Positions 1 through 28,521 of a stretch of DNA of 45,683 nt are shown one piece after another. The notes under the pieces are model-generated. The model was not told the origin of the DNA, ran no database searches, and saw nothing but the letters and a program-made list of their open reading frames with translations. The DNA is from a virus. The position numbers and the translations under genes are program-made. The DNA is taken from positions 1 through 45,683 of the IMG/VR virus record IMGVR_UViG_3300006880_000027; one strand, 5' to 3'. The first letter of the stretch is position 1. Each line of letters begins with the position of its first letter.

Positions 1-222
1 CTGAGAGAACCGCGGCCACGCCGCTCGGATCTGAGACTTCAGGGGGCGGCTCCCGGTTCCCGCGGGCGGCTCGTCGATGAGGAACACAACCCGGACGTCC
101 GTCTTCTGGATCTTGCACTCATCGCCGACCACACGCCAAAACCAACTCCACATTCCGTCGCTGGGTTCACTCACCATTGTCACGAGAAGAGGTGCATCGA
201 TCCTTCCTACCGCTTTGCTCAC
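1..222 (-). CDS. Partial hypothetical protein (3' end beyond window)
   Basis: An open frame runs from a GTG at 222 off the left edge (74 codons visible). The start is supported by GGAGG followed by AAAC and then GTG. The visible protein begins VSKAVGRIDAPLLVTMVSEP and has a hydrophobic strand followed by an acidic Pro-rich turn (VVFLIDEPPAG). I recognise no family. It follows the EndoVII-deoxyribosyltransferase gene after only 15 bases, so it is probably the next gene of the same transcript. Confidence 0.6.
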   Translation of the reverse strand, partial: MSKAVGRIDAPLLVTMVSEPSDGMWSWFWRVVGDECKIQKTDVRVVFLIDEPPAGTGSRPLKSQIRAAWPRFSQ

Positions 223-237
223 GTTTCCTCCCAGTGG

Positions 238-1056
238 CTATGAACTCCCTTCCGGGAGGTGGTCGTAAGGTGTGGGCGGGGGCCCCGTATTCACAGGAGC
301 GACCGGCGCCAGTTCTTTGAGTGCGATCAGTAGCTCGGTCTCGGTCTTGCATACACGGTCCACGAATCTGGTCATTACATCGTACCGGTCCGGTTCAGCT
401 CCGTCGAGGAACAGGATCGTAGACTTTTTCCTCCCGGCCGCGTATCCCAGTTCGAGCATCGCCGACTTTCCCGCGGGCATCGCCAACACGACTACATCAG
501 CCATGTCGAGGTAGCTGCGGTCGAACAAAAAGGTATTCCTGACAGACCGGCCGTTCAGAGCTTCCGCGTAGGTCCGCCCTCGTCGACGTTCGTACTCCTG
601 AAGATTCACATCGGCCATCTCACCGGGCGTGAACCACTCATCCATGACATCATACCCCTGCGCTCTGAGTAGGTTGCCGATGTCAGGGATACGCTGATTC
701 TTCAGCGCACCGATGAGGTAGATGAATGTTTTCTCAAGGTCCCGGTCGAGGTAAGCCATCAGCCGACGTAGCGTGGCCGGATTGTCCTTCAACTGCCCGA
801 GGCCCATGTTACACGCCGGGCAGAGCAGCCCCCGAATCCGTCCCGTCGCATGGTCGTGGTCAAGATGCGCTGATTTGGTGATAGGTTTGAGGCAGCCAGC
901 GCATGAGTTTTGTTGACGAGCAAGTTGCCGCTCAACGTCCTGTGCTGTCCAGCCATGACGGTATTTACGAACCGCCGCCGTGTTCCTCTCCGGATGACGC
1001 GCTCGATATTTCGTCTGTCGGGTGCGGTCCTTTTCCCGTTTCTCTTCAGGAGTCAC
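238..1056 (-). CDS. EndoVII-type HNH endonuclease fused to nucleoside deoxyribosyltransferase-like domain
   Basis: Two domains are visible in 272 residues. Residues about 50-92 form a recombination endonuclease VII-type HNH fold: Cys52/Cys55, the HLDHDH motif at 64-69 and Cys79/Cys82 followed by Asn83. Residues about 109-250 look like the nucleoside 2-deoxyribosyltransferase superfamily: a start resembling YLAGP (FIYLIGAL), then DVVVLAMP and LELGYAAG with Glu202 as the likely catalytic acid. Known members exchange bases on deoxynucleosides or hydrolyse the N-glycosidic bond. The GTG start overlaps the ThyX stop (GTGA) and has GGAG upstream, so the gene is translationally coupled to thyX. A pyrimidine salvage role is inferred. 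The nuclease half could be a captured homing-type domain. Confidence 0.8.
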   Translation of the reverse strand: MTPEEKREKDRTRQTKYRARHPERNTAAVRKYRHGWTAQDVERQLARQQNSCAGCLKPITKSAHLDHDHATGRIRGLLCPACNMGLGQLKDNPATLRRLMAYLDRDLEKTFIYLIGALKNQRIPDIGNLLRAQGYDVMDEWFTPGEMADVNLQEYERRRGRTYAEALNGRSVRNTFLFDRSYLDMADVVVLAMPAGKSAMLELGYAAGRKKSTILFLDGAEPDRYDVMTRFVDRVCKTETELLIALKELAPVAPVNTGPPPTPYDHLPEGSS

Positions 1057-1751
1057 GCGAGGTCTCCGAACATGTGGGGGGCTTCCTTGACGAGAACGTC
1101 GAGCACTGCCGCAGCAAGATCCCTGATCTCTCGGTCAGCGTGGGGTGAGTTTCTCTTCTGGATGAACTCTCGCCACGTCCGGGCGTTGCCCGTGACCATG
1201 ATCTTCGTCTCGGTGCTCTCCAGAAGGAAAGCCCGAGCCATCCCTCGCAGGCGCTTCGTCTCGGTAGTGGACGAGTCCTCGGACGTCTCGGACAACAACT
1301 CCATCACAGATCGGTAGTTTTCCCGAGCCTGCTCCGCGAGGGACTCAAGCAGTGACGTTAGGCCCGTCCCCTCCAGTTCGGGGGGTGTGACCGTCTTCGA
1401 GTCCGAGTGGTCGACGTACCGCTGCGACAGCTGGCTGAAGCTGAAGTGCCGGTGCCTCACCAGCTCGTGCGTCAGAGAGCGGGAGACACCGGTGAAGATG
1501 AAGCTGTAGACGGCGTGCTCCAGCACCGAGAAGTGCTGCTGCCCGATGATGTTCGCGAGGTACTGGGCGTTGGTCTTGCGGCCCTTCCCGAAGCTCATGT
1601 AGCAGAGGCGCCCGCCGATCTCGGCCAGAGTCTCCCCATCCGAGGGTGGCTCGACCATGTACTGTGCGCCGTCGGGCAGCGCTTCGTCCCGGGCGAACCT
1701 TGAGAACTCACTCCACTCTAGGCGGGGCTTCCCCACGAGGTAGATGTTCAT
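1053..1751 (-). CDS. thyX: Flavin-dependent thymidylate synthase ThyX
   Basis: The protein has 232 residues and begins MNIYLVGKPRLEW. ThyX methylates dUMP to dTMP using FAD, NADPH and methylene-tetrahydrofolate. The family signature RHRxxSxxxxSxR is present as RHRHFSFSQLSQR, preceded by ELV as usual. The length fits the family (about 220-250). I chose the ATG at 1751 because the frame upstream of it has Ser/Thr/Arg-rich, non-protein-like composition and GAGGG lies upstream. The downstream gene overlaps by GTGA. The start lies inside the 3' end of an HNH gene, which extends to 1708 in another frame. Confidence 0.95.
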   Translation of the reverse strand: MNIYLVGKPRLEWSEFSRFARDEALPDGAQYMVEPPSDGETLAEIGGRLCYMSFGKGRKTNAQYLANIIGQQHFSVLEHAVYSFIFTGVSRSLTHELVRHRHFSFSQLSQRYVDHSDSKTVTPPELEGTGLTSLLESLAEQARENYRSVMELLSETSEDSSTTETKRLRGMARAFLLESTETKIMVTGNARTWREFIQKRNSPHADREIRDLAAAVLDVLVKEAPHMFGDLA

Positions 1752-2337
1752 AGTAGCTCTTGTCCCTCTTCTCAGTGCGTGCGCTGCGGTGGAGGCGGCC
1801 TCCCTCGCCGGGGGCTGAGTGAAGCCACCAGAGGAAGCGGAGTGTGATGACGAACTGCCACTTGCTCCGCACCCATACGAGGACATCCTCGTCCGTGAAC
1901 TCGTTCGCCCCGCGCTTGCGGTTGCAGGCGGGGCACAGGGGGCGGTAGTGGCCGTCGTTCTCACCCGGGTGGATGTGGTCGAGCTGGAGACGCCGACCAC
2001 TCCGGCGTCCCCCGAGGTGCTTGAACCACGGGCCCTTCAACCAGTAGCGGTGAAGCTCGTAGTTGGGGAGGCCGCAGATGTCACACCGGGTCTCGGGGTG
2101 GTTGAGCACCCCGGCCCAGTAGACAGCGTGCTCGTGGGACAGCCCTCGGTGGGACTTGAGCTGTCGGATCAGACCTTGAAGGCTCTTACGAGCCCTCGCC
2201 TGCTGGTCCTTCCGCTTCTCCGCGTTCCGCGAGATCCACGCCGTGTTCCTCGCCTTGTCGCACGCTCGGCACCGGTACACCTTGTGCCGGAGGTTCCCCT
2301 CCGAGATGTCCGTCGACCCGCATCGACATGTCGTCAC
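1708..2337 (-). CDS. HNH endonuclease with N-terminal zinc ribbon
   Basis: About 209 residues. An N-terminal zinc ribbon has CxC and CxxC pairs (CRC...CRAC). An HNH core follows: CDIC, then LDHIHP and LCPACNRKRG. Such proteins are usually freestanding homing-type or phage recombination nucleases. Two starts are possible: GTG at 2343, which directly abuts the Shine-Dalgarno, and GTG at 2337, with GGAGG spaced six bases. I prefer 2337. The gene overlaps the 3' end of the upstream gene by about 150 bases and the thyX start by 44 bases, which suggests insertion between two formerly adjacent genes. Confidence 0.8.
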   Translation of the reverse strand: MTTCRCGSTDISEGNLRHKVYRCRACDKARNTAWISRNAEKRKDQQARARKSLQGLIRQLKSHRGLSHEHAVYWAGVLNHPETRCDICGLPNYELHRYWLKGPWFKHLGGRRSGRRLQLDHIHPGENDGHYRPLCPACNRKRGANEFTDEDVLVWVRSKWQFVITLRFLWWLHSAPGEGGRLHRSARTEKRDKSYYEHLPRGEAPPRVE

Positions 2338-2950
2338 TGACACCCTCCTTGAGCTTCGCAGCCGCGGCCTCCGCCATCTCGGGCGGGAGACCGAAGGCCG
2401 TAAGCGCTTCGGCCAGACTCCTGACGACGTGATCGAGTGCGATCTGGACAGCGTACCCCTTCATCTCGCGGACGTCGTCCTCGGGGATCGGGAACTCCAA
2501 CCCGTCGAGAGTGATGACGTTGCGCGTGAAGTCGAAGCTCTCCACCTTCCGGAAGTCCGGCAAGCGAGGGGCCATCGGGGGCATGAACGCGCCACCCCGC
2601 AAGGGAGTCCGGGACTGGAACTCCCTCGACATCCGCTGTTCGCGGTTGTCCGCGGCCAGTGGGGAGATAGGAGCGCCCGCTGCCGCCGCTTCCTCGAACG
2701 AGGCGTAGTCCGCGGGTGCGTCGGGGTCCTTCTCGATGAGGCCCAGATCGCGAGCCGCAGCATCACGCCGGGCCTGCTCCTCCGGAGACAGAGGTGGCGG
2801 GTCCATGGCGGCGGAGCGGACCGACGGTCCGGTGCCGAGTGTGACCGGCCCGGACCGACGCATGTGTCCCCGCTCCATGTTCTCCTGCTTCACCCGGGCA
2901 GCCAACCGAGTGATGGCATTGTCCTTTTCGTAGCCGGGCTCAGCAGACAC
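2186..2950 (-). CDS. Hypothetical protein, C-terminus overlapped by HNH gene
   Basis: 254 residues from a GTG start at 2950 with GGAGG four bases upstream. The protein is charged, with a Pro-rich middle and a helical segment (residues about 165-205). No family is recognised. The last 50 residues (Gly/Glu/Pro-rich) lie entirely within the overlap with the HNH gene and look unlike a conserved domain, so the original C-terminus was probably shorter or different. It directly follows the candidate ssDNA-binding gene with a 9-base gap and is probably cotranscribed with it. Confidence 0.65.
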   Translation of the reverse strand: MSAEPGYEKDNAITRLAARVKQENMERGHMRRSGPVTLGTGPSVRSAAMDPPPLSPEEQARRDAAARDLGLIEKDPDAPADYASFEEAAAAGAPISPLAADNREQRMSREFQSRTPLRGGAFMPPMAPRLPDFRKVESFDFTRNVITLDGLEFPIPEDDVREMKGYAVQIALDHVVRSLAEALTAFGLPPEMAEAAAAKLKEGVSDDMSMRVDGHLGGEPPAQGVPVPSVRQGEEHGVDLAERGEAEGPAGEGS

Positions 2951-2959
2951 GGCCCCTCC

Positions 2960-3556
2960 TTAGACCGTCGGCGCGTCGGGGAGGTAGGACTCCACGTTCG
3001 TGCGGCGGTCGTGCTTGGCGCCCTCGCCAGCGTTCGGCGAGTCGCACAGGTTGACCATGACGCTCTTGCCGACGATCGGCACGTTGACGCCCGGCTGGCC
3101 CTTCGGGGGGAACATCAGCTGGAGCACGGAGGCCTTGAGGCCGCCGGTCTTCGAGGCGTAGCCCGTGGCCGAGAACAGCGTCGACAGCGCGTTGATCGAG
3201 TTGTCGTTCATGAACGTGTGCTTCTTCTTCTCGTCCTCGGTCGCCGTCCCGGCCATGACGCGCGGGTTCAGCGAGTGGCGGGACCAGAGGCGCTGGTGCT
3301 CGTTCGGGAAGCCCGCACGGACCTTCAGCTGCACGACGGCGACGATGAGGCCGTCCTTCGTGCCCTCACGCCACGTACCCTCGATGACCGCGGCCTCGGT
3401 CCAGCGTGAACGGACGTTGCCCTTCTTGTCGGTCGAGGACGTCGCGTCGGCAGGCACCTTCAGCGGGGCGCCCTGCGACATCGCAGCCGCGGCCGCCTTC
3501 TGCGCGCCGTCGGAGATGTCGAAGAAATCGGGGGTAGGGATGTTCGCGTCAGCCAT
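2960..3556 (-). CDS. Candidate single-stranded DNA-binding protein of the Sak4 module
   Basis: 198 residues, MADANIPTPDFFDIS at the start, overlapping the Sak4-like ATPase gene by 8 bases. The centre is beta-rich (TWREGTKDGLIVAVVQLKV, then ASVLQLMFPPKGQ), as in OB-fold proteins, and the tail is acidic/charged. In many phages a DUF669-like or SSB-like gene follows a Sak4-type ATPase. That context, rather than a diagnostic motif, is the reason for the call. A role in coating ssDNA for annealing and replication is inferred. Confidence 0.55.
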   Translation of the reverse strand: MADANIPTPDFFDISDGAQKAAAAAMSQGAPLKVPADATSSTDKKGNVRSRWTEAAVIEGTWREGTKDGLIVAVVQLKVRAGFPNEHQRLWSRHSLNPRVMAGTATEDEKKKHTFMNDNSINALSTLFSATGYASKTGGLKASVLQLMFPPKGQPGVNVPIVGKSVMVNLCDSPNAGEGAKHDRRTNVESYLPDAPTV

Positions 3557-4400
3557 TGTTGTTCTCCTTCGGTTGGTTGTTGCGCTGGGCGTTCACGTAC
3601 GGCACGTACTTGTCGGTCCAGTAGGACGAGGGGTTCCTATCGAGGAACACCTTCGCGAGGGGATTCGCCGCGACCTCGTCCGAGGTGCGGATCTTGCTGA
3701 TGAACTTGCCGTCGCCTTCGGTGATGGCGACCACCACCTCTTCCGGGGCATCGTTGCCGGGGACGAGCACCGTCTCCCGGATCACCCGGATGACTGTGCT
3801 GAACTGACCCGGCAGGTACTCCGTCATCGCACGGCCCGGGTGAGCCGGACCGCCGACTGCCTGCACGCCCTCGATGAGCTTCACGTCCTCGTGCATCACG
3901 AAGATGATGTGGAAGTCACGCTGTCGGGTGAAGATCATGTCGAGGTAGCCGCGCGAGAGTGCGTCGATCGCCTGATAGTCGCCGCGGTTCGGGATCGCCT
4001 GACCACCGTTGTGGGGGTCGCCGATCACGTAGTGCTTTTCGCGATCCATCGACTGGGAGTTGGCCGCGTAGCTGATCGTGTCGAGCGCCACCTTTGTGTA
4101 GGTGTCGACAACAATCGTGCCGATCTCCGGGTCGATCGCCTTCCAGTCCATCATCGTGAACTGCTGGAAGTTGACCATCGGGTTGTCCCCCTCGGGGATG
4201 ACCGGGATGACGCGACCGCGCTTGTCTGGGCTGATCGACGGCAGCTGCTCCGAGTTGAGGTCGGCTGCGTAGTAGACGATCTTGCCCCAGTCGGCGGGGA
4301 CGGACAGCGCGAGCCGGGACTTCCCGGTGCCTGCGCGGCCATAGATGCAGATCCGTTCCTTGGGGACCGGGGGTGCCTGCTTGAGAACTCTGAGTCCCAT
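3549..4400 (-). CDS. Sak4-like RecA-fold ATPase (single-strand annealing recombinase)
   Basis: 283 residues. Walker A is GRAGTGKS at residues 21-28, and a Walker B strand, GTIVVDT, ends at residue 100. Further on are FHIIFVMHEDVK and AMTEYLPGQ, as in phage AAA/Sak4-type NTPases, which promote ssDNA annealing with a partner SSB. The ATG at 4400 has GGAG at good spacing. The gene has its own promoter at 4431-4459, inside the end of the primase gene, and leads a cotranscribed set continuing into the SSB-like gene. The C-terminus is Asn/Gln/Lys-rich. Confidence 0.8.
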   Translation of the reverse strand: MGLRVLKQAPPVPKERICIYGRAGTGKSRLALSVPADWGKIVYYAADLNSEQLPSISPDKRGRVIPVIPEGDNPMVNFQQFTMMDWKAIDPEIGTIVVDTYTKVALDTISYAANSQSMDREKHYVIGDPHNGGQAIPNRGDYQAIDALSRGYLDMIFTRQRDFHIIFVMHEDVKLIEGVQAVGGPAHPGRAMTEYLPGQFSTVIRVIRETVLVPGNDAPEEVVVAITEGDGKFISKIRTSDEVAANPLAKVFLDRNPSSYWTDKYVPYVNAQRNNQPKENNNG

Positions 4401-4430
4401 CGGGGCTCCTTTGGTGAGGTGTGGACTACA

Positions 4431-4459
4431 ACCCTACACTGTTTCGCGGCTGATGTCAA
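4431..4459 (-). promoter_or_regulatory. Sigma70-type promoter, copy 1 (for Sak4-like operon)
   Basis: On the minus strand the -35 box TTGACA (4454-4459) and the -10 box TAGGGT (4431-4436) are separated by exactly 17 bases. It matches the promoter at 17,968-17,996 beyond the two boxes: both begin TTGACATC and both end GTGTAGGGT, one base, GTAGTCC. The predicted start lies about 25 bases before the Shine-Dalgarno/ATG of the ATPase gene. The promoter overlaps the last codons of the primase gene. Confidence 0.8.
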
Positions 4460-5468
4460 GGGGACCGTAGACCTGCTCGACGATTCTTTCGATCTCGGTT
4501 GGTGGGAGAGCCTTCTCATCCCCGAGGATCCGGTTGGCGTACGAGATGGCTGCCCTCGCCTGCGTGCGGTCGATGCCGCATTCGGCGAGCTTGGTGACCG
4601 TGTGCCACATCGTCTCATGGCGGCCCGGGTCCTCCTTGCCCTGTGTCAGATACTCCTGTGCCTTCCGTGTCAACCTATTGTACACAGTTTGCCAAGGCGT
4701 CCCCGGCGGCAGCTCCCCGGGCTCGGGCTCGTTGAAGGTCGTCTCTGGGACACCCTCCACAAGGGTGTTCGCGAGGAAGTCGTACGGCTCGGTCGGCCCG
4801 GACACGATCGCGGTCACCCGGCCGGTCTTCTGGTTCACGGTCCCCGGCATCCGCATGACGCGAGGGAGGTCCGCGACACTCGTGTCGATCCGGCAGCCCT
4901 TGTGTGTCCCGACGTGCTCAGCCAGCTTCTTCAGCCAGTAGCCCATCGCCTTCCGGGCCGTCTTCCTCGTGCAGACACCGAACGGCCGGGGAAGGGGGGT
5001 GCCATCCATGCGAGCACTGATGCCGATGAAGCGCCCCTCCTGCTGACGGTCATCGAGGACGATGTCCCCCAGCCGAATCCACGCCTGCATCCCTCGGCCG
5101 CTGTCCACGATGATCGGTGGTCGCCGCTTGAAGTCGATGTTGTGCCATCTCCCCAGCCAGAGCAGCGCCTCGGCGAGGGCAGACGCCGGGTCACACTCCT
5201 CCTCGACCGGGTCAGCGTCGATGAGGAAGTAGGACCAGTGGGTCACGTCGGCCGTGCTGTGCCGGGTGCCCACCGTGCTCTTCGTGGGGTTCATGGCGAC
5301 GTAGACGTTCATGTCCACGGCGCTGTCAACGAATCGTTGCATCTCCCCCGGTGTTCGAGCGAAGTCCCCAATCTTCCGATTCCCCATCTTTGCGAACATC
5401 CGCACCACATGGGAGGGCGTTGGGTGGGGCAGTAGGTCCCACAGCTGCGTGATGGTCGGAGAGGTCAT
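4434..5468 (-). CDS. Archaeo-eukaryotic-type DNA primase
   Basis: 344 residues. Motifs of the AEP superfamily are visible: the acidic pair in YFLIDADP (Asp84, Asp86), the SGRG motif at 123-126 after PPIIVDS, and the third acid in CRIDTSVADLPRVMRMPGT (Asp195, Arg203, Arg206). A helical PriCT-like tail (residues about 275-335) ends with EIERIVEQVYG. It would make primers for replication together with the RepA-like helicase. The ATG at 5468 has a modest GGAAG upstream. The Sak4 operon promoter overlaps its end. Confidence 0.8.
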   Translation of the reverse strand: MTSPTITQLWDLLPHPTPSHVVRMFAKMGNRKIGDFARTPGEMQRFVDSAVDMNVYVAMNPTKSTVGTRHSTADVTHWSYFLIDADPVEEECDPASALAEALLWLGRWHNIDFKRRPPIIVDSGRGMQAWIRLGDIVLDDRQQEGRFIGISARMDGTPLPRPFGVCTRKTARKAMGYWLKKLAEHVGTHKGCRIDTSVADLPRVMRMPGTVNQKTGRVTAIVSGPTEPYDFLANTLVEGVPETTFNEPEPGELPPGTPWQTVYNRLTRKAQEYLTQGKEDPGRHETMWHTVTKLAECGIDRTQARAAISYANRILGDEKALPPTEIERIVEQVYGPLDISRETV

Positions 5469-5854: not shown

Positions 5855-6849
5855 TCTGCATCTCCTTCTGGTGGTGCGTAGGTGTCCTCGCGGGGCCCGA
5901 AGTAACGGGGGTCGTCGAGTTCGATCTCCCCGGTCAGCACGCGGTAGTAGTCGTCGGGAGAGTTGCCGAACTGGCCACCGTTCATCGTCTCGTTGGGCGC
6001 CGGGATCCGTCCCTCGTTGAGCCACAGCAGCTGAGTCCGCCGCATGTTATTGGCGTGGTACCGGATGCTGTCCATGACGTGCTCGTGCAGTGGGCTCTCC
6101 AGATCGATCGACATCGGCAGCTGGCAGAACATCTCGTTCAGCTGCTTGACCTCCCCGAGAGGGTTGTTCTTCGTCACCTTCGTCCGGTACTTGAGCTTCC
6201 GGATGAGGTTGAACTGGGTGCCCCCGACCTTGTACTGCGGGTACTTCTCGTGCTCGGCTTCCGCGTAGAGGTGCTCGTGGTAGCTGCGCTTGGCGAGGTC
6301 CGTGAAGACCCCGAAGTGTGTGCCCGCCGCCAGCGCCTTGTGCTGCTTGTGCCACAGCGTGCCGTACTCGACAGCCATCCTGTCCGGGCGCCCTCGCGCG
6401 CGCAGTCCATTCCCGAGGTTGAACTCGAAGGGTGTCTCGACTTCGAGGCAGTGGATGTGCTGGTCACCATCCTCCTCCACGTCGGGCGTGAGCGTGTCCT
6501 TCCACTGGACGAGTGCCTCCGTCAGGTCGTCGAGCTGCTTGAGGACCTTCTCCCCCACGACGAGGTCAACCGGGTCCGTGGTCTCTGCCATCTTCAGGAC
6601 CCAGAGATAGCGCTGCCGTTCGATCGCCCCGACCATGGTCGCGGGACCACCGAAGTGGTCAGTGCCATATCCGGTGTAGTAGTCCTCGAAGATCCGGTGG
6701 ATCAGCTTGCCGAAGCTGAGGGGCTGAGCCTCGTGGATCGGGACCTTGTTCATGACCCAGCAGGCCCACCAGCGGAATGGGCAGCGCATCCACGACTGGA
6801 CCTCGGAGACGTTGAATGTGGCGTCGATGCCGTTGTCGGCGAGGATCAT
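5851..6849 (-). CDS. PD-(D/E)XK superfamily nuclease (Cas4/RecB-like)
   Basis: 332 residues. The N-terminal part has SEVQSWMRCPFRWWACWV and then SFGKLIHRIFEDYY (motif I His51). An acidic strand, CLEVETPFEF, is followed by ARGRPDRM (Asp156) and KQHKA (Lys171), as in the PDDEXK_1/RecB-like exonuclease fold. The Cys set that holds the Fe-S cluster in Cas4 is not evident. A role in end resection for the Sak4 annealing pathway is inferred from the neighbours. The ATG at 6849 overlaps the RNA ligase stop by four bases. Confidence 0.75.
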   Translation of the reverse strand: MILADNGIDATFNVSEVQSWMRCPFRWWACWVMNKVPIHEAQPLSFGKLIHRIFEDYYTGYGTDHFGGPATMVGAIERQRYLWVLKMAETTDPVDLVVGEKVLKQLDDLTEALVQWKDTLTPDVEEDGDQHIHCLEVETPFEFNLGNGLRARGRPDRMAVEYGTLWHKQHKALAAGTHFGVFTDLAKRSYHEHLYAEAEHEKYPQYKVGGTQFNLIRKLKYRTKVTKNNPLGEVKQLNEMFCQLPMSIDLESPLHEHVMDSIRYHANNMRRTQLLWLNEGRIPAPNETMNGGQFGNSPDDYYRVLTGEIELDDPRYFGPREDTYAPPEGDAE

Positions 6850-7667
6850 TTCTTACCCTTCCACTCCTCATCCTTCTTGACCGTCGCCTTGAACATCAGA
6901 TCCCCGGCCGTGTGGTAGACGATTATGCCCTCGGGGTGCTTGAAGCCGGGAGCAGCGACGGAGCCATTCCGCTTCAGCCATTCGAGGATGAAGTTCGGGG
7001 CGAAGCGAGGGCGGGGGTTGAACGGCAGGACCTTCAGCAGCTCGGCCCGGACGATCTCGCTCATGTTCTCCCCACCGAAGACCTCGACGATTCGGTCGGC
7101 CAGCGTCTGGACCTCCATCTGGGCGGCTTCCAACTCCGGCCACACTGGGTCGTGGACCTCGGAGACCTTGAACCACTCGCCCTTGTCGTTCTTGTAACCG
7201 AGGTTCCCGGTCCACGGCCCCCGGTACAGAACCGGGACGACGTCGATGGAGACGCCGTTGGCCTTGATCTCGGCCAGCGAGGCGTCGAGCCGGTCCTCCT
7301 TGCCCTCCTCACGCACAATCCAGCGGGTCGTGTTGAAGAGGGAGAAGCGCTTGACGTCGAGGCCGTAGTTGCGCTGGATGCCCTTGCCCCACCACTCGCC
7401 GAAGTGGGTGCCCTCGCCGAGGGCGTAGATCAGGGCAGCCCGGTTCTCCTCGACCCACTTGGCGAAGCCGAACTGATCGTCCTCTACGGTGAGGAAACGG
7501 TTGCGGCTCTGGGCGCGGACGCTCCAGACGAGGGGGAGCTGCTCCCCCGCCGGGTCGTACACACGCTCGATCACGATCGCCGCATTGGTCCCGTCGATCT
7601 TCTCGGTGATGACGATCTCCCGGTTGAGCCGGGGGATCTTCGGGAACTCCTTGAATCCGTCACTCAT
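6846..7667 (-). CDS. RNA ligase, Rnl2-like nucleotidyltransferase
   Basis: 273 residues from the ATG at 7667 (GGAG upstream, 8-base overlap with the preceding gene). The nucleotidyltransferase motifs are in order: motif I EKIDGTNA with the adenylated Lys23, motif III-like FGEWWGKGIQR, motif IV-like PEGIIVYH and motif V FKATVKK near the end. The family seals RNA nicks, often repairing tRNA cut by host defence. No polynucleotide kinase was recognised here, although a metallophosphoesterase lies at 16,961. A DNA-ligase role is less likely, given the length and sequence. Confidence 0.82.
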   Translation of the reverse strand: MSDGFKEFPKIPRLNREIVITEKIDGTNAAIVIERVYDPAGEQLPLVWSVRAQSRNRFLTVEDDQFGFAKWVEENRAALIYALGEGTHFGEWWGKGIQRNYGLDVKRFSLFNTTRWIVREEGKEDRLDASLAEIKANGVSIDVVPVLYRGPWTGNLGYKNDKGEWFKVSEVHDPVWPELEAAQMEVQTLADRIVEVFGGENMSEIVRAELLKVLPFNPRPRFAPNFILEWLKRNGSVAAPGFKHPEGIIVYHTAGDLMFKATVKKDEEWKGKK

Positions 7668-9223: not shown

Positions 9224-9501
9224 CGCATCACTCCGAGAATGTCGTTCTCCATCACGACGTAGAAGCGCTCGCGAGGGGCGCCCTCGCTGGGGCTCAGGTC
9301 GACTGGGCTGCCACAGTATTGCTTGGTTATGACGCCGTCGCCAACTCGGACGTCCTCGCGGACACCAGAGCCGACGCGGACGACGACCGCATGCTGGGAC
9401 TCTCGGGACTCGCCGAGGTTGACGACCTCGATGATGGACGACTGGAGCTTGTCCTCTTCCAACTTCTTGATCAGGATCTTCTGGCCGAGTGTGGTGATCA
9501 T
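9220..9501 (-). CDS. GroES-like co-chaperonin (Cpn10 fold)
   Basis: 93 residues from the ATG at 9501. The order of strands fits Cpn10: TLGQKILIKKLEED at the start, then a mobile-loop-like ESRESQHAV, VVVRVGSGVREDVRVGDGV in the place of VVAVGxG...VKVGD, and a closing YVVMENDILGVM resembling the usual end of GroES. Phage GroES analogues (T4 gp31 type) cap host GroEL for capsid protein folding. The ATG overlaps the upstream stop (ATGA). Confidence 0.75.
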   Translation of the reverse strand: MITTLGQKILIKKLEEDKLQSSIIEVVNLGESRESQHAVVVRVGSGVREDVRVGDGVITKQYCGSPVDLSPSEGAPRERFYVVMENDILGVMR

Positions 9502-9746
9502 GCGCGATCGAACTCCGCCGCGTCTTCGCGGCAAGTGAGCACCCGGATGCAGGCGACCTCCGCCTTCGCCACCCGGGCTGCGTGTTGGAGAGTCTGGTAG
9601 ATGAGCGCCCCACCCTTGTGGGGGGAGAACTGGTAGATGGAGCCGTCTTCCTTCCGGTCGTCCGTGTAGTCGGACTGGAAGTAGACCAGCTCGTTGTCCA
9701 GCTCCCGATAGACGACGTAGGCGGGGGCCATGATGGAGGGTGTCAT
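9498..9746 (-). CDS. Small hypothetical protein
   Basis: 82 residues, ATG at 9746 with GAGGA upstream and an ATGA overlap with the gene before. The sequence has YVVYRELDNELVYFQSDYTD and a helical middle (GALIYQTLQHAARVAKAE). No family is recognised. It is coupled to the GroES-like gene downstream. Confidence 0.65.
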   Translation of the reverse strand: MTPSIMAPAYVVYRELDNELVYFQSDYTDDRKEDGSIYQFSPHKGGALIYQTLQHAARVAKAEVACIRVLTCREDAAEFDRA

Positions 9747-10930: not shown

Positions 10931-11255
10931 CCTTCTTCTTCTCCACCTTCACCATCTTGGGGAGGGTCTTGTCCTCGGTCACCCATTCGTAGCCGAGGGC
11001 GGTGGTGAGGGCCTTGAGGCGAGTGTAGAGATCTCTGAGGTCCTCGTGGGAGACGAGGGTGGTAATCCTGAGGGGCGAGCTAGTGGGGGCGACCACATGC
11101 TCGAACCTTTCCCGGAAAGAACGGTTGATGTCCCGAGTTGTGTTGAACTCAGAGCGCAGCTCCTTCAGACCCTTCGCCTGTGCCTTGACATTCATGTTGA
11201 GGACGAAGACGACGGCGATGAGAGAGGCGAGGACAGTGATGAGAAAGGGGATCAT
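10923..11255 (-). CDS. Single-span membrane protein with coiled-coil-like tail
   Basis: 110 residues. Residues 2-22 (IPFLITVLASLIAVVFVLNM) form one hydrophobic span at the N-terminus, followed by a long charged helix (KGLKELRSEFNTTRDIN) and a mixed domain. The C-terminus is Lys-rich (KVEKKKG). The ATG overlaps the helicase stop. No family is recognised; membrane anchoring is inferred. Confidence 0.65.
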   Translation of the reverse strand: MIPFLITVLASLIAVVFVLNMNVKAQAKGLKELRSEFNTTRDINRSFRERFEHVVAPTSSPLRITTLVSHEDLRDLYTRLKALTTALGYEWVTEDKTLPKMVKVEKKKGV

Positions 11256-12448
11256 TCGGGTGTCTCCTCGAAGTCGGCCGCCATGTAGGCAGCGCGACGG
11301 CCACGGTTACCCCCACCCTCTTGCAGGATGCGGGGCTTGAGTCGGCGCTTCTCGTTCGAGATGCGGGCGTAGATGGCCCTCTCGAACTTGTCAGCGTCGG
11401 GGAACAGGAAGGTGAACTTGGGATGCAGGGCGGTAGCAATCTCGGACTTCGTGAGTTGCTGCCCTCGCTGGCCGCGGAGGAGACCGACGATAGCGTCGAC
11501 CAGCTCGTCCTCGACGCCGGTGACCTCGACTTCGCTCGGCTGCTTGAAGGCGAGTGAGGCGGAGTCCTCGTCACTGACGTTCATGGCGTAGTAGAAGGGT
11601 TCAGGGGTGATGCCCCGGAACTTCTTGTACTCCGCCCGGATGAGGTACTTCTCCTTCTCCGTGCGGTTCAGCTGGATCTGGTTGTCGAGAGCGCCGGGCC
11701 CGGCGGTGGCACCGCGCCACCCCTCGCCGTCGTTGTGCTCGGACTTGGCGGCGTTGTGGTGGAGGATGAGGCAGGCAGCGCCGGTCAGACGACTGAAGAA
11801 GCGGACGTTGCGGAAGACACTCTCGGTGAAGGTGTTGCTGTTCTGCTCGACGGAGGTGAGCTTCGACCATGTGTCGAAGATGACGAGGACGGCGCCCCGG
11901 CGGCGGCGCAGTTCCGTGATGGGGATCTGGAGGTCACCCTCAGCCGAGGGCTCGAACCCGACGACGTGCTCGGTCTCCGGCCCCCACTCCAGTGCGTTCG
12001 CCGTGACGACGAGGCGCCGGATGGTGTCGATGTTGTCGAGCATGAAGTCGGACTGGATGAGGAAGTGGACGTTCGATTCGAGAGGGTTGTCGACGTCGTG
12101 GTGTCCCTCACCGAGGGGAACGTAGGACTGCCACTCACGCAGGGTGAGGCGGCGCCACTGGCGGGCGTAGTCTTCCTTGGACGAGTCGGAGCCGACGAAG
12201 AGGACCATGCCTTGGCGGGCTTGGAAGGCTTCGAGGAACTTGGTGCCAGTGGCGACGGCGCGAGCCATTTCGAGGGCGAACCACGTCTTGCCAACACCGG
12301 GTGCGGCAGTGAGACCGGTGATGGTGCCAGCGGGCTGGGCGTCCTCGATGAGCATTTCGGGGGGCTCGACCGTGTAGAGGTCGGTGGACCCGAGCAGTGT
12401 GTAGGGCTTGACGCTCTCGATGCCGAGGAGGCGGATGTCGTCGCTCAC
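11252..12448 (-). CDS. RepA-like hexameric replicative helicase (RecA-fold ATPase)
   Basis: 398 residues. Walker A is AAPGVGKT at about 48-55, the Walker B strand is VLVIFDTWSK and a sensor-like ACLILHHNAAK is followed by EGWRGATAGPGALDN, an arrangement known from AAA_25/RepA-like helicases that unwind DNA at replication forks. The C-terminus (from about residue 315) looks like a winged helix (LTKSEIATALHPKF). I chose GTG at 12448 because it overlaps the stop of the upstream microprotein (GTGA) and has GGAG five bases upstream. Confidence 0.8.
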   Translation of the reverse strand: MSDDIRLLGIESVKPYTLLGSTDLYTVEPPEMLIEDAQPAGTITGLTAAPGVGKTWFALEMARAVATGTKFLEAFQARQGMVLFVGSDSSKEDYARQWRRLTLREWQSYVPLGEGHHDVDNPLESNVHFLIQSDFMLDNIDTIRRLVVTANALEWGPETEHVVGFEPSAEGDLQIPITELRRRRGAVLVIFDTWSKLTSVEQNSNTFTESVFRNVRFFSRLTGAACLILHHNAAKSEHNDGEGWRGATAGPGALDNQIQLNRTEKEKYLIRAEYKKFRGITPEPFYYAMNVSDEDSASLAFKQPSEVEVTGVEDELVDAIVGLLRGQRGQQLTKSEIATALHPKFTFLFPDADKFERAIYARISNEKRRLKPRILQEGGGNRGRRAAYMAADFEETPE

Positions 12449-12606
12449 TTTGTCTCCGGGGGAGGGAAGGGAACGGGGACCTTCATCCAGTCTCCGTAGA
12501 TGTTCGTTGGGTATGTCTTGTACCGGTGCCACAACTGGCCCATGTTGTCGAGACCGTACATTGAACCATTCTCGATGAAGATCTGGATCAGCTTCCGCTT
12601 TTCCAC
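12445..12606 (-). CDS. Microprotein upstream of helicase
   Basis: 53 residues from a GTG at 12606, in a frame that fills the gap between the 12,588 gene and the helicase. It begins VEKRKLIQIFIENG and ends PVPFPPPETK. It has an aromatic-rich middle with GQLWHRYKTYPTNIYGDW. AAGG lies upstream of the start, there is a 19-base overlap with the gene before and a GTGA overlap with the helicase. No family is recognised; it may be coupled to helicase synthesis. Confidence 0.6.
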   Translation of the reverse strand: MEKRKLIQIFIENGSMYGLDNMGQLWHRYKTYPTNIYGDWMKVPVPFPPPETK

Positions 12607-13157
12607 GGGTCCTTTCCTTCCTCGAAGAACTTCATCTCGTAGATGGGGTGCCGTTCCGCGTCGAAGTCGATCGGCTTCATGCGGCTGAAGTCGAGCATGT
12701 GCATCGAGCGGATCATCTCGTTGGTGAGCTGGTACACGATGACCCCTCCCGCAGTCTTGAGGTCCCGAGCGTACTGCATGAAGGTCTCATCGAACTGGAC
12801 GGTGAGCATCCAGCGGCGGGAGAGCTTCTTGTGGGTGGTGATCAGGCGAACCCGAGTGACCTCGGCAGCGAGGGCGGACATCCGGTCCTCGGCCACCTTG
12901 ATGCGGGCGGTCGCCCGGTCGTGCTCGTTCTGAAGACCTTTAGCGGTCTGCTCCCTCGCTTGGGTCGCGATCTCCTCGGTGCGCTTGCGGAGGGTGCGCT
13001 TGTACGACTGGCGCCAGCGGCGCCGAGTGGCACGGTGGGCGTTGTTCTGTTCTTGGAGGAGGCGCTGGACGTACTCGACCGCAGCTTGGCCACCGGCATT
13101 GAGGAGCTGATGGTGTTCGCGGGTGAGGATCGGGAGGCGGAACGAGCGGTTACTCAC
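12588..13157 (-). CDS. Hypothetical coiled-coil protein
   Basis: 189 residues from GTG at 13157, overlapping the upstream microprotein's stop (GTGAGTAA). Residues about 40-105 are Arg/Glu/Ala-rich and probably coiled coil. The C-terminal 80 residues form a mixed domain (RRWMLTVQFDETFMQYARD, then IDFDAERHPIYEM). No family is recognised. Confidence 0.65.
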   Translation of the reverse strand: MSNRSFRLPILTREHHQLLNAGGQAAVEYVQRLLQEQNNAHRATRRRWRQSYKRTLRKRTEEIATQAREQTAKGLQNEHDRATARIKVAEDRMSALAAEVTRVRLITTHKKLSRRWMLTVQFDETFMQYARDLKTAGGVIVYQLTNEMIRSMHMLDFSRMKPIDFDAERHPIYEMKFFEEGKDPWKSGS

Positions 13158-13311
13158 GTTCCGTGTACCCCATCAGTTCAGCGCCGAGCATGCCCACCGT
13201 GAACAGGATGAAGCCGCAGATCCACTCGTAGATGTTGGTGACGTGGCTCGTCATGCGGGCCCCCTGAGCCACAGCGATGCAGATCATGATGCGAAGGACG
13301 AGACGTCCCAT
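13150..13311 (-). CDS. Small membrane protein
   Basis: 53 residues, ATG at 13311 with AAAGGAG seven bases upstream. The N-terminus has a short hydrophobic stretch (LVLRIMICIAVAQ), and residues about 27-47 form a membrane span (IYEWICGFILFTVGMLGAEL). It is the first gene after the structured 285-base gap, so its translation could be affected by that RNA. No family is recognised. Confidence 0.65.
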   Translation of the reverse strand: MGRLVLRIMICIAVAQGARMTSHVTNIYEWICGFILFTVGMLGAELMGYTERE

Positions 13312-13596
13312 CTGTTGTCTCCTTTCAGGAGGAAGTTACCGCCCGGGGCCTCATTGCCGGGCCTGCCATGGTGGACCCTTTGTGGAGGTCGCTCCGAAGA
13401 GCGTTCCCTGATATTCCACGAGGCGGGTCAGCCCATTGTTGGGGGCAGGTAGACGGTGATCTCACAGCGTCTCAACGGGCGTTCGCCTCCGGCTCACGGC
13501 CCCTCTACAGGGGCCACCTCGGGTTACTTCCCTCGCCAGCGGGCTGTGCATCTTCCCGCCTACCTGTTATCCCCTCAGCCGGTAGCGAACCGGCGC
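13312..13596 (-). ncRNA. Candidate structured non-coding RNA in a gene-free gap
   Basis: This 285-base gap sits in an arm where genes otherwise overlap, and no convincing frame is open on either strand. Read on the minus strand it has a long-range helix of 11 pairs (CAGGTAGGCGG at 13,556-13,566 with CCGTCTACCTG at 13,446-13,456; one G-U). The helix encloses three short hairpins: 13,498-13,515 (7 bp, GTAG loop), 13,521-13,532 and 13,478-13,487. Outside it are a UUCG tetraloop hairpin (13,390-13,403), a 6-bp stem (13,341-13,346 with 13,357-13,362) and a 5-bp hairpin at the 5' end (13,578-13,594). A family could not be assigned. Confidence 0.55.
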
Positions 13597-13734
13597 CTAC
13601 TCTTCCCAGCCAGCTTCACACTTGCAGTCATCGACGTTGCAGCCACCCCAGCCGTGTTCATTGGGGGTGTGGTCGCAGGTACAGGTGCCCGTGAAGTACG
13701 GTTCGTAGTCCGGGAACTCTTCATCTTCGTCCAC
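13597..13734 (-). CDS. Cys-rich acidic microprotein
   Basis: 45 residues from GTG at 13734, preceded by GGAGG at five bases. The start is acidic (VDEDEEFPDYEPYF), then CTCDH, WGGCN and CKCEAGWEE give five Cys and one His, which could bind zinc. The GTG lies inside the end of the upstream membrane protein gene. No family is recognised. Confidence 0.65.
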   Translation of the reverse strand: MDEDEEFPDYEPYFTGTCTCDHTPNEHGWGGCNVDDCKCEAGWEE

Positions 13735-26951: not shown

Positions 26952-27703
26952 TGCGTGTTCCTTTCGGTTTCGGCCTCGCGGCCTCGTCAGGCGTGCCACT
27001 CTGCTAAGGGCCTGATATAGCGGGCCGCTCTCGACCCTTTTGGTTACTGTGCAGTTTGCTATACCTTCCAAGCGCTCCCGTTAGCGTAGGTTCGACCATC
27101 TCCTGTCCGTATGCAGAGTGTAGCACGCTACCGATGCACGCTAGGCTAGACTCTGGGACGTTCGCACCTTCGCGCGAAGTGTCCACACATCTTGCCTAGC
27201 GTGCACAGCGTTTGCGAGTTTGCCAGACTCGCGTCGGTGAGACTGCCCGGTTCGTCGCACGTATCATGACCGGTCACGCCACTTGTCCACCACGTTCCGT
27301 TAGGATTGTGGACACTGTGTGCGCGACAATGGCCGCATATGCCGCCGGTTCGCTCACCCCATATTCACGGGCCGATGTCCCTTCGCTCGCTGCCGACACA
27401 CAGTGTGCCCGCGCGTTGCGTCAGTATCCGGCTTCATGTCCAGCCGCATCTGTCGGACTCCACGTCCGATGCTCTCGCGAGCGGGCCGTGCGTCGTGTCG
27501 CGCGTCCGGTAGTCACGCTGGGTGCGCGTGGTAGCTTACGTGCGGCGTGCGTCGGTGCCTTTTGCGTCAGGTGACAATCATCTCATGATGCTGCGTTGCG
27601 TGTCAACGTCATTCTGCGTTGCTGGCCGAGCGGCCCCGGCATCCCGGGAGCGTGTCCGGCACTGCCACGGAGTAGTGCACGGGCCATGCCAGACGTCCAA
27701 TCG

Positions 27704-27722
27704 TTGCGGCACAACAAGTTAG
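27704..27722. promoter_or_regulatory. Operator-like motif, degenerate copy
   Basis: TTGCGGCACAA, three bases, GTTAG. It matches the right two thirds of the sites at 28,013 and 28,140 (TTGTGGCACAA, three bases, GTTAC). The left arm is not conserved. Confidence 0.4.
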
Positions 27723-27844
27723 CGGCTCGGCATGTCCCTGCCTGCGTGCATTTCCCACTCCCCGCGCGTGCATCTTGCCTTGACAGTACCCTAACGGCCC
27801 GCGCCGCACGGACTTAGGCACGTTGGGGAATGCAACGCACCGAT

Positions 27845-27860
27845 TGGGTCGATCGACCCA
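27845..27860. repeat. 16-base perfect palindrome
   Basis: TGGGTCGATCGACCCA reads the same on both strands. Such a site could bind a dimeric regulator or a replication protein. It is unique in the window as far as I could see. Confidence 0.6.
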
Positions 27861-27912
27861 GCGCGCGAGAGGAGAGGACGGGCGGGCGCGCGTAGCAACT
27901 ATCGTGCCAGCG

Positions 27913-27935
27913 TGACACTTGTCATGCGAGTGTCA
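27913..27935. repeat. Inverted repeat TGACACT / AGTGTCA
   Basis: Seven-base arms with a nine-base spacer, followed two bases later by another dyad (CGAGAAT-cc-ATTCTCG). The arms are 16 bases apart centre to centre, suitable for a dimer binding one face of the helix. Confidence 0.5.
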
Positions 27936-28012
27936 ACGAGAATCCATTCTCGGCCTCCTAGGATGCCCTAGGACGGGCGAGTTCCAGCTGAGAACGCGCT
28001 CTCACGAACCGC

Positions 28013-28039
28013 GTAACTCATTGTGGCACATGGGGTTAT
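28013..28039. promoter_or_regulatory. Extended dyad operator-like site, copy B
   Basis: GTAAC, three bases, TTGTGGCACAT, three bases, GTTAT. It matches copy C at 28,140 with the same spacing and small differences in the right half. A repressor-like protein with paired binding domains would fit the double symmetry. Confidence 0.55.
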
Positions 28040-28139
28040 GCGGGATGCTCCCTCGCGGCTGGTATGGTCACTCATGGACGGGCGCGACGCGCTCCTAGGG
28101 CAACCTTGGAAGCGTGGAGGGCATGTGCTTGACAATCGT

Positions 28140-28166
28140 GTAACGCATTGTGGCACAACGAGTTAC
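28140..28166. promoter_or_regulatory. Extended dyad operator-like site, copy C
   Basis: GTAAC, three bases, TTGTGGCACAA, three bases, GTTAC: a perfect outer and inner inverted repeat around one central G. A TTGACA (28,129-28,134) lies directly upstream, so binding here could block a plus-strand promoter, although I see no good -10 box. Confidence 0.6.
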
Positions 28167-28195
28167 GGGGGATTGGGCCATCCCACCCAATGGGG

Positions 28196-28212
28196 TGCAC
28201 GGGTGTGCAGTG
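28196..28212 (+). repeat. TGCAC-N4-GTGCA motif, copy 1
   Basis: TGCACGGGTGTGCAGTG: five-base inverted arms with a four-base spacer followed by GTG. Two further copies lie at 28,340 and 28,369. Confidence 0.55.
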
Positions 28213-28339
28213 TACCATACGGTACAGGGGGCAGGCGCGGCAGGGCAGGGAGCGGGCCACGGCAGGATTGACACGCTCTTGACCACTTGCGCCGCACGTT
28301 GGCATGGAAAGTGTGATAGGGTCATATCTCCCACTGACC

Positions 28340-28357
28340 TGCACGCTTGTGCAGTGG
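28340..28357 (+). repeat. TGCAC-N4-GTGCA motif, copy 2
   Basis: TGCACGCTTGTGCAGTGG, with an added outer dyad (CCACTG at 28,331 and CAGTGG at 28,352). It is 29 bases from copy 3, nearly three helical turns, so two dimers could sit on one face of the DNA. Confidence 0.6.
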
Positions 28358-28368
28358 CCACCCAGTGG

Positions 28369-28386
28369 TGCACGCCTGTGCAGTGG
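28369..28386 (+). repeat. TGCAC-N4-GTGCA motif, copy 3
   Basis: TGCACGCCTGTGCAGTGG, identical to copy 2 except for the spacer. It lies about 135 bases before the first late gene, where it could control late transcription. Confidence 0.6.
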
Positions 28387-28521
28387 GGCGGGCAGGCCCG
28401 GACGCACGCGCACACGCGCACACAGCCTCGGACGCTGAGGGTGGGGGGACGACCCCAACTCGCGAATGGGGGGTATAGAGTCTAGGGGGCCTGTGGCCCG
28501 CAAAAATGAAAGGGTTTTCAG

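Follow-up and report, generated by a model that had tools for sequence, protein, structure and literature searches.

A candidate structured RNA, possibly acting in trans, in a gene-free gap of a phage early operon

The question raised by this locus is why 285 bases carry no gene in the middle of an operon whose genes run into one another. The window, i.e., the whole stretch of DNA analyzed, is an IMG/VR virus contig of 45,683 bp (G000). Its head and packaging genes match those of SU10-like podoviruses, with matches to the major capsid, portal, and adaptor proteins of SU10, its TerL matches phrog_38, and its early genes are placed on the minus strand. Gene calls from a crude caller written for the analysis showed a clean gap of exactly 285 bases (13312–13596, minus strand) between genes coding for proteins of 45 and 53 amino acids. 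The near-universal overlap of the flanking genes, pointed out in an earlier sequence-only reading of this DNA, was confirmed, as neighbors in the operon mostly overlap (−4 to −8 bases), though a few further gaps of 150–430 bases are present in the same set of calls. It was also found, in agreement with that reading, that the gap holds no supportable frame: each minus-strand frame contains several stops, and the GC content of the three codon positions (0.68/0.61/0.63) lacks codon-position bias, while nearly all neighboring genes show a GC3 of 0.72–0.85. One plus-strand frame is open through the gap, in the orientation opposing the operon. No promoter-like site was found. The gap and its surroundings are organized as follows.

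13597–13734, minus strand: upstream gene for a Cys/Asp-rich protein of 45 amino acids, without family match; its stop codon abuts the RNA
13339–13596, minus strand: whole candidate RNA as delimited by comparison, in which the pseudoknot module comes immediately after domain A; transcript ends putative
13319–13326, minus strand: GAAAGGAG, ribosome-binding-site-like sequence belonging to the next gene and lying beyond the conserved RNA
13150–13311, minus strand: downstream gene for a hydrophobic protein of 53 amino acids, without family match

The gap lies ∼0.8 kb upstream of a gene (11252–12532) for an AAA ATPase of the phage helicase/primase type, and no relatives were found for a 189-aa downstream protein. 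The early operon also encodes a protein with a PF09414 RNA ligase domain (6846–7667, minus strand), which could repair or circularize RNA and may or may not be connected with the candidate RNA. Elsewhere in the window, where the early and late operons diverge, ∼1.6 kb (26952–28521) are without a confident gene call, and probably represent a promoter region or missed genes.

Relatives of the window were obtained through two of its genes. A search with the ATPase gene identified L002 (IMGVR_UViG_3300046678_000133) and L003 (IMGVR_UViG_3300047471_000283), both at 50% identity, along with more distant phages, and a search with the terminase identified L185, referred to below as G013 (IMGVR_UViG_3300046837_000067; 69%), and others. 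Contig-wide blastn placed the window, L002, L003, G013, and L183 in one phage group that shares long DNA similarity over head or early genes, while the middle early regions have diverged. No DNA relative was found among phage GenBank records, and blastn of the gap against phage GenBank and plasmids gave only matches due to chance or to tRNA.

Folding statistics of the single sequence were not decisive. Compared with shuffled sequences, the whole gap was only mildly more stable (MFE z = −1.8 and −1.6), and its longest long-range helix was equaled in 16 of 100 shuffles. The 5′ domain was an outlier, with z = −3.84 for 13437–13596 and −3.94 for 13446–13566 (0/200 shuffles each), whereas the 3′ half, owing to the pseudoknotted nature of its key helix, appeared ordinary (z = −0.29). 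Since single-sequence energy is uninformative for the 3′ part and weak for the whole gap, the decision rests on comparison, which draws on four phages, i.e., two sequences for domain A and three for the pseudoknot module, so that each module is covered by one or two comparisons that are independent.

Domain A (13437–13596) consists of the following elements, given in the RNA sense.

13578–13594, minus strand: hairpin A, GCCGG-UUCGCUA-CCGGC (5 bp, 7-nt loop)
13567–13576, minus strand: GAGGGGAUAA, whose GGGG pairs with CCCC (13445–13442) beneath the 11-bp helix
13556–13566, minus strand: 5′ strand of the 11-bp helix, CAGGUAGGCGG (CGGGU-a-GGGAAG in G013)
13467–13545, minus strand: conserved core, AGCCCGCUGgCGAgGGaAGUAaCCCGAGGUGGCCCC..GGGGCC..AGCCGGAGGcGAACGC..GuUGAGACGC
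13446–13456, minus strand: 3′ strand of the 11-bp helix, CCGUCUACCUG (CUUCCCACCCG in G013)

The 11-bp helix had been proposed from the sequence alone, and it was recovered at the same place on the minus strand with a pairing probability of at least 0.99. With a 1.6-kb query spanning the gap, one good match was obtained, in which positions 9400–9525 of G013 aligned with 13593–13467 of the window (77% DNA identity over 127 nt, E about 1e-19 to 1e-20), covering hairpin A and the domain of the 11-bp helix. The helix of G013 again has 11 bp, with one bulged A, four two-sided changes, and one G-U to G-C change; its pairing probability was at least 0.96 in both phages. This is the covariation that the sequence-only reading had named as the support to look for. 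Of trials with as many random substitutions, 0.025% kept the full set of 11 pairs (P ∼2.5e-4). Hairpin A of G013 reads CCCGG-GUCAUUC-CCGGG, with the closing pair changed from G-C to C-G, and the GGGG/CCCC pairing is conserved (GAGGGGACCAA with CCCC). The core, including the hairpins GGCCCC/GGGGCC and GGY-GAAC-GCY, is near-invariant, with 89% column identity between the window and G013. Insertions and deletions of 1, 2, 3, and 1 nt separate the two sequences, and therefore a shared reading frame is excluded for domain A.

Comparison of the complete sequences showed that, outside positions 1–4730 of the window, early-region DNA similarity between the window and G013 is confined to domain A. In G013, domain A follows a gene that we take, from its own sequence, to be DnaQ-like and whose end overlaps the first bases of the domain. 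It closes the early operon and is followed by a terminator hairpin and convergent genes. The R2 covariance model found domain A only in the window and G013, and L002 and L003 were without it. Other leads were rejected: L198, retrieved with a domain-A pattern, looks coding, L199 is the same phage as G013, and an apparent hairpin A match in L002 (5086–5102) was dropped because its flanks disagree. The string GGGGATAACAGG, which presumably resembles the peptidyl-transferase region of 23S rRNA and is also I-SceI-like, was likewise set aside because it is not conserved in G013.

The second part of the gap (13339–13436) is the pseudoknot module, made up of the following.

13425–13429, minus strand: 5′ strand of P1, GACCC (CGGUC in L002, CGCCC in L003)
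13420–13424, minus strand: J segment GCCUC, pseudoknot partner of GAGGC in the P3 loop (GCCUU in L002)
13382–13419, minus strand: P2 insert, GUGGA..UCCAC, capped by a UUCG hairpin at 13390–13403 (CGCUCUUCGGAGCG)
13374–13378, minus strand: 3′ strand of P1, GGGUC, preceded by AAA (GACCG in L002, GGGCG in L003)
13341–13362, minus strand: P3 hairpin, GCCCGG-CAAUGAGGCC-CCGGGC

The UUCG-type hairpin and the stem ahead of the next ribosome site, both described earlier, correspond to observed structures. The 10-nt P3 loop CAAUGAGGCC is invariant in the window, L002, and L003, while the P3 stems of the two relatives read GCAGG/CCUGC and GCUGG/CCAGC, respectively. In all three phages, GCCUC or GCCUU directly follows the 5′ strand of P1 and is complementary to GAGGC of the loop, and the spacing from the AAG at the start of the P1 3′ strand to the P3 loop is exactly 21 nt. 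All 10 stem pairs are Watson-Crick in each sequence, and all 15 pairs are standard in 3/3 sequences, with two-sided changes in 6. Only 0–1 of 500 shuffles matched the observed pairing, and slid registers lost it. The P2 position holds an unrelated hairpin in L002 and none in L003. The linker between the P1 3′ strand and P3 (13363–13373, minus strand) and its equivalents in L002 and L003 each contain a 6-nt palindrome (CCAUGG; GUGCAC), which might allow dimer formation; two palindrome variants are all that were seen.

The module appears to be confined to these three phages. The R1 covariance model, applied to 20 loci, matched only the window, L002, and L003, with none in nine distant ATPase relatives and none in eight further records; L005–L013 (ATPase relatives with 36–46% identity) and L114 do not carry the module. 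A control set was made of all IMG/VR sites in which GCCT is followed by AAG 21 nt before CAATGAGGCC (48 stretches); across both stems, the three phages formed 10–11 bp and the runner-up site 7, most sites having 0–3. Among 84,980 bacterial and archaeal genomes, 21 stretches were found, none with more than four stem pairs. No further copy with the exact loop was present in IMG/VR or in these genomes; both scans require the exact loop, and relatives with an altered loop would escape them. The 91 IMG/VR stretches containing GGCAATGAGGCCCC were chance matches except for L002 and L003. A short peptide starting at the AUG of the P3 loop was rejected as no ribosome site accompanies it and its frame ends after 9 codons in the window and 13 in L002. 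In G013, 36 nt past domain A, the sequence GACCG-GCCUC-CGGAAAU-CGGUC resembles P1 plus GCCUC without P3, which is suggestive only; G013 would retain at most this part of the module.

The relatives therefore carry one or the other module with letters changed and base pairing kept, and both modules occur together only in the window; with its parts found in different combinations and at differing places in the genomes, the RNA looks modular. The proposal that the gap encodes a functional RNA is supported by pairing kept through two-sided changes. A conserved peptide frame, which would have spoken against it, is absent, as stops interrupt all sense frames and indels of 1 or 2 bases separate the relatives. 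Very probably, judging from these comparisons, the gap holds a real phage RNA with a previously uncatalogued fold.

The genomic arrangement around the module differs among its carriers. In L002, it is present in a non-coding gap of 643 bases upstream of the ATPase gene, and in L003 in a gap of ∼170 bases. The element following it is tRNA-Glu in L002 and a degenerate cloverleaf in L003 (∼75 nt), after which the next gene begins; in the window, L002, and L003, this gene codes for a small hydrophobic protein. The tRNA-Glu(UUC) of L002 (5434–5506) has an encoded CCA and a non-canonical T-loop (TGTGACA). Its counterpart in L003 (∼6712–6784) has kept the D-arm and acceptor stem, and a CCCGGG-AGCA-CCCGGG hairpin replaces the anticodon arm; it is possibly a tRNA mimic or a decaying tRNA. 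Isolated tRNA T-arm hairpins were observed in L002 (4887–4903, GCGGGTTCGATTCCCGC) and L195 (3646–3662, GTGGGTTCGAGTCCCAC), each with another small hairpin close after it and the rest of the tRNA not recognizable. Upstream of the module in L002, 456 nt (4882–5338) gave z = −2.2 alone and −3.6 for the whole 643-nt gap; the stretch matched nothing in Rfam and is probably a larger RNA domain. A 664-nt gap of L012 (5766–6462) contains tRNA-Arg(UCG) and tRNA-Asp(GUC); the latter gene may carry an insertion, since a better 5′ acceptor strand (GGGAGCC) is located ∼35 nt further upstream.

The explanation that we favor, with a probability of about 0.55, is that of a stand-alone phage RNA cut from the early transcript and acting in trans. 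The gap would encode, on its minus strand, a structured RNA of ∼260 nt transcribed with the early operon. Domain A would be branched, closed by the GGGG/CCCC pairing and the 11-bp helix, and hold the conserved core, and in the pseudoknot module the P3 loop would pair back to GCCUC within the P1 hairpin. In L002 and L003, RNase P may release the RNA by cutting where the tRNA or tRNA-like element adjoins it; in the window, other RNases may do so. The conserved core and the invariant loop could then be contact sites for a host or phage component, with action in trans rather than control of a neighboring gene.

Such control in cis, i.e., an early-mRNA element governing translation or stability of the downstream small membrane-protein gene or of the operon, for instance as an RNase-blocking pseudoknot or a switch, is rather unlikely. 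The small hydrophobic protein gene next in line in three phages, the end of the P3 hairpin ∼30 nt ahead of the next start codon in the window, and the mid-operon place in three phages, equally expected for such an element, are in its favor. However, the constant place before the same kind of gene that characterizes leaders and riboswitches was not observed, as domain A of G013 has no downstream gene, the tRNA or tRNA-like element of ∼75 nt intervenes in L002 and L003, and the spacing to the start codon varies. As to the earlier view, its second half, that the functional RNA is not a leader, is hence favored, though not proven.

It is improbable that the gap functions at the level of DNA, for example as a replication origin or a protein-binding site whose inverted repeats mimic stems. 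Covariation by itself cannot separate RNA from DNA hairpins, and the position near the helicase/primase-type ATPase gene would suit an origin. Against this, the few G-U pairs (pair 8 of the window helix; the L002 pseudoknot) fit only an RNA of the operon strand, a pseudoknot with a constant unpaired loop is RNA-like, and domain A in G013 is placed at the operon end in a record without an ATPase-family match.

A known class diverged beyond Rfam, e.g., a large phage RNA like GOLLD or ROOL or a tmRNA-like RNA, is a very improbable source. The phage setting near tRNA elements resembles that of GOLLD and ROOL (PMC12286853), and the 643-nt gap of L002 is highly structured (z −3.6) with a tRNA inside. 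Yet Rfam 15 gave no match for the candidate RNA at the gathering threshold, and up to E = 10 nothing that approached the gathering score, whether in the window, in L002, or in G013, including the GOLLD and ROOL covariance models. The families that the sequence-only reading had listed for first testing, though not claimed, fared no better, as the HEARO (IscB omega-RNA), RNase P, and group I intron models were unmatched. The immediate neighbors have no family match, and no IscB or TnpB domain was identified among ∼40 window proteins scanned, which agrees with the earlier statement that the window has no IscB. The flanking ORFs are complete, each with its own start and stop codons, unlike those split by a group I intron. 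For tmRNA, there was no model or ARAGORN match, and candidates appeared only at a relaxed ARAGORN threshold. HEARO, RNase P, group I intron, tmRNA, GOLLD, and ROOL are therefore unsupported. Slightly less probable still is the remnant of a decaying tRNA cluster rather than a selected RNA, which the odd T-loop and stray T-arm of L002, the degenerate cloverleaf of L003, and a stray T-arm in G013 might suggest, but no tRNA was found in the window, neither shared module is a part of a tRNA, and both show stronger conservation than the adjoining tRNAs.

The trans-acting RNA may belong to a broader group. Tentatively, and at rather less than even odds, it would represent a new modular class in which branched-core and pseudoknot domains are interchangeable, are exchanged among SU10-like podoviruses, are sometimes fused to tRNA-like ends, and bind host machinery early in infection; under this same tentative reading, the machinery could be, e.g., ribosomes, tRNA-handling enzymes, or defense proteins. 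To our knowledge, phage non-coding RNAs of defined structure are few, and even for the best-known ones, GOLLD and ROOL, a function is still lacking. The candidate RNA is short, with a conserved core and a pseudoknot having an invariant loop, and its location in the early operon is where host-altering RNAs are expected. It offers concrete, testable pairings along with a covariance model with which metagenomes can be mined.

Among known systems, the fluoride riboswitch (crcB motif) contains a hairpin loop with a AUGAGGCC-like sequence in a pseudoknot. The candidate RNA differs from it in the opposite order of the pseudoknot strands, in other flanking stems, and in matching no Rfam model at E ≤ 10, and from this and similar small switches in its inconstant distance to the next gene. 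Like HEARO, it would be a structured RNA from a mobile or phage setting. The stable RNAs C and D of phage T4 (species 1 and 2) are small, structured, and transcribed with a tRNA cluster; the likeness is one of description, and the window has no tRNA. GOLLD and ROOL are large phage or prophage RNAs found near tRNA islands (PMC12286853). All carriers of the candidate RNA are phage contigs, with a tRNA-Glu in L002, a cloverleaf in L003, a T-arm in G013, and no tRNA in the window itself. It has in common with GOLLD and ROOL an elaborate pseudoknotted fold and conserved and variable parts. It is unrelated to them in sequence and spans ∼260 nt compared with more than 800 nt in many GOLLD members; a homo-oligomeric RNA cage is one trait expected of that group's members. 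GOLLD and ROOL are thus its nearest counterparts in setting, not in sequence.
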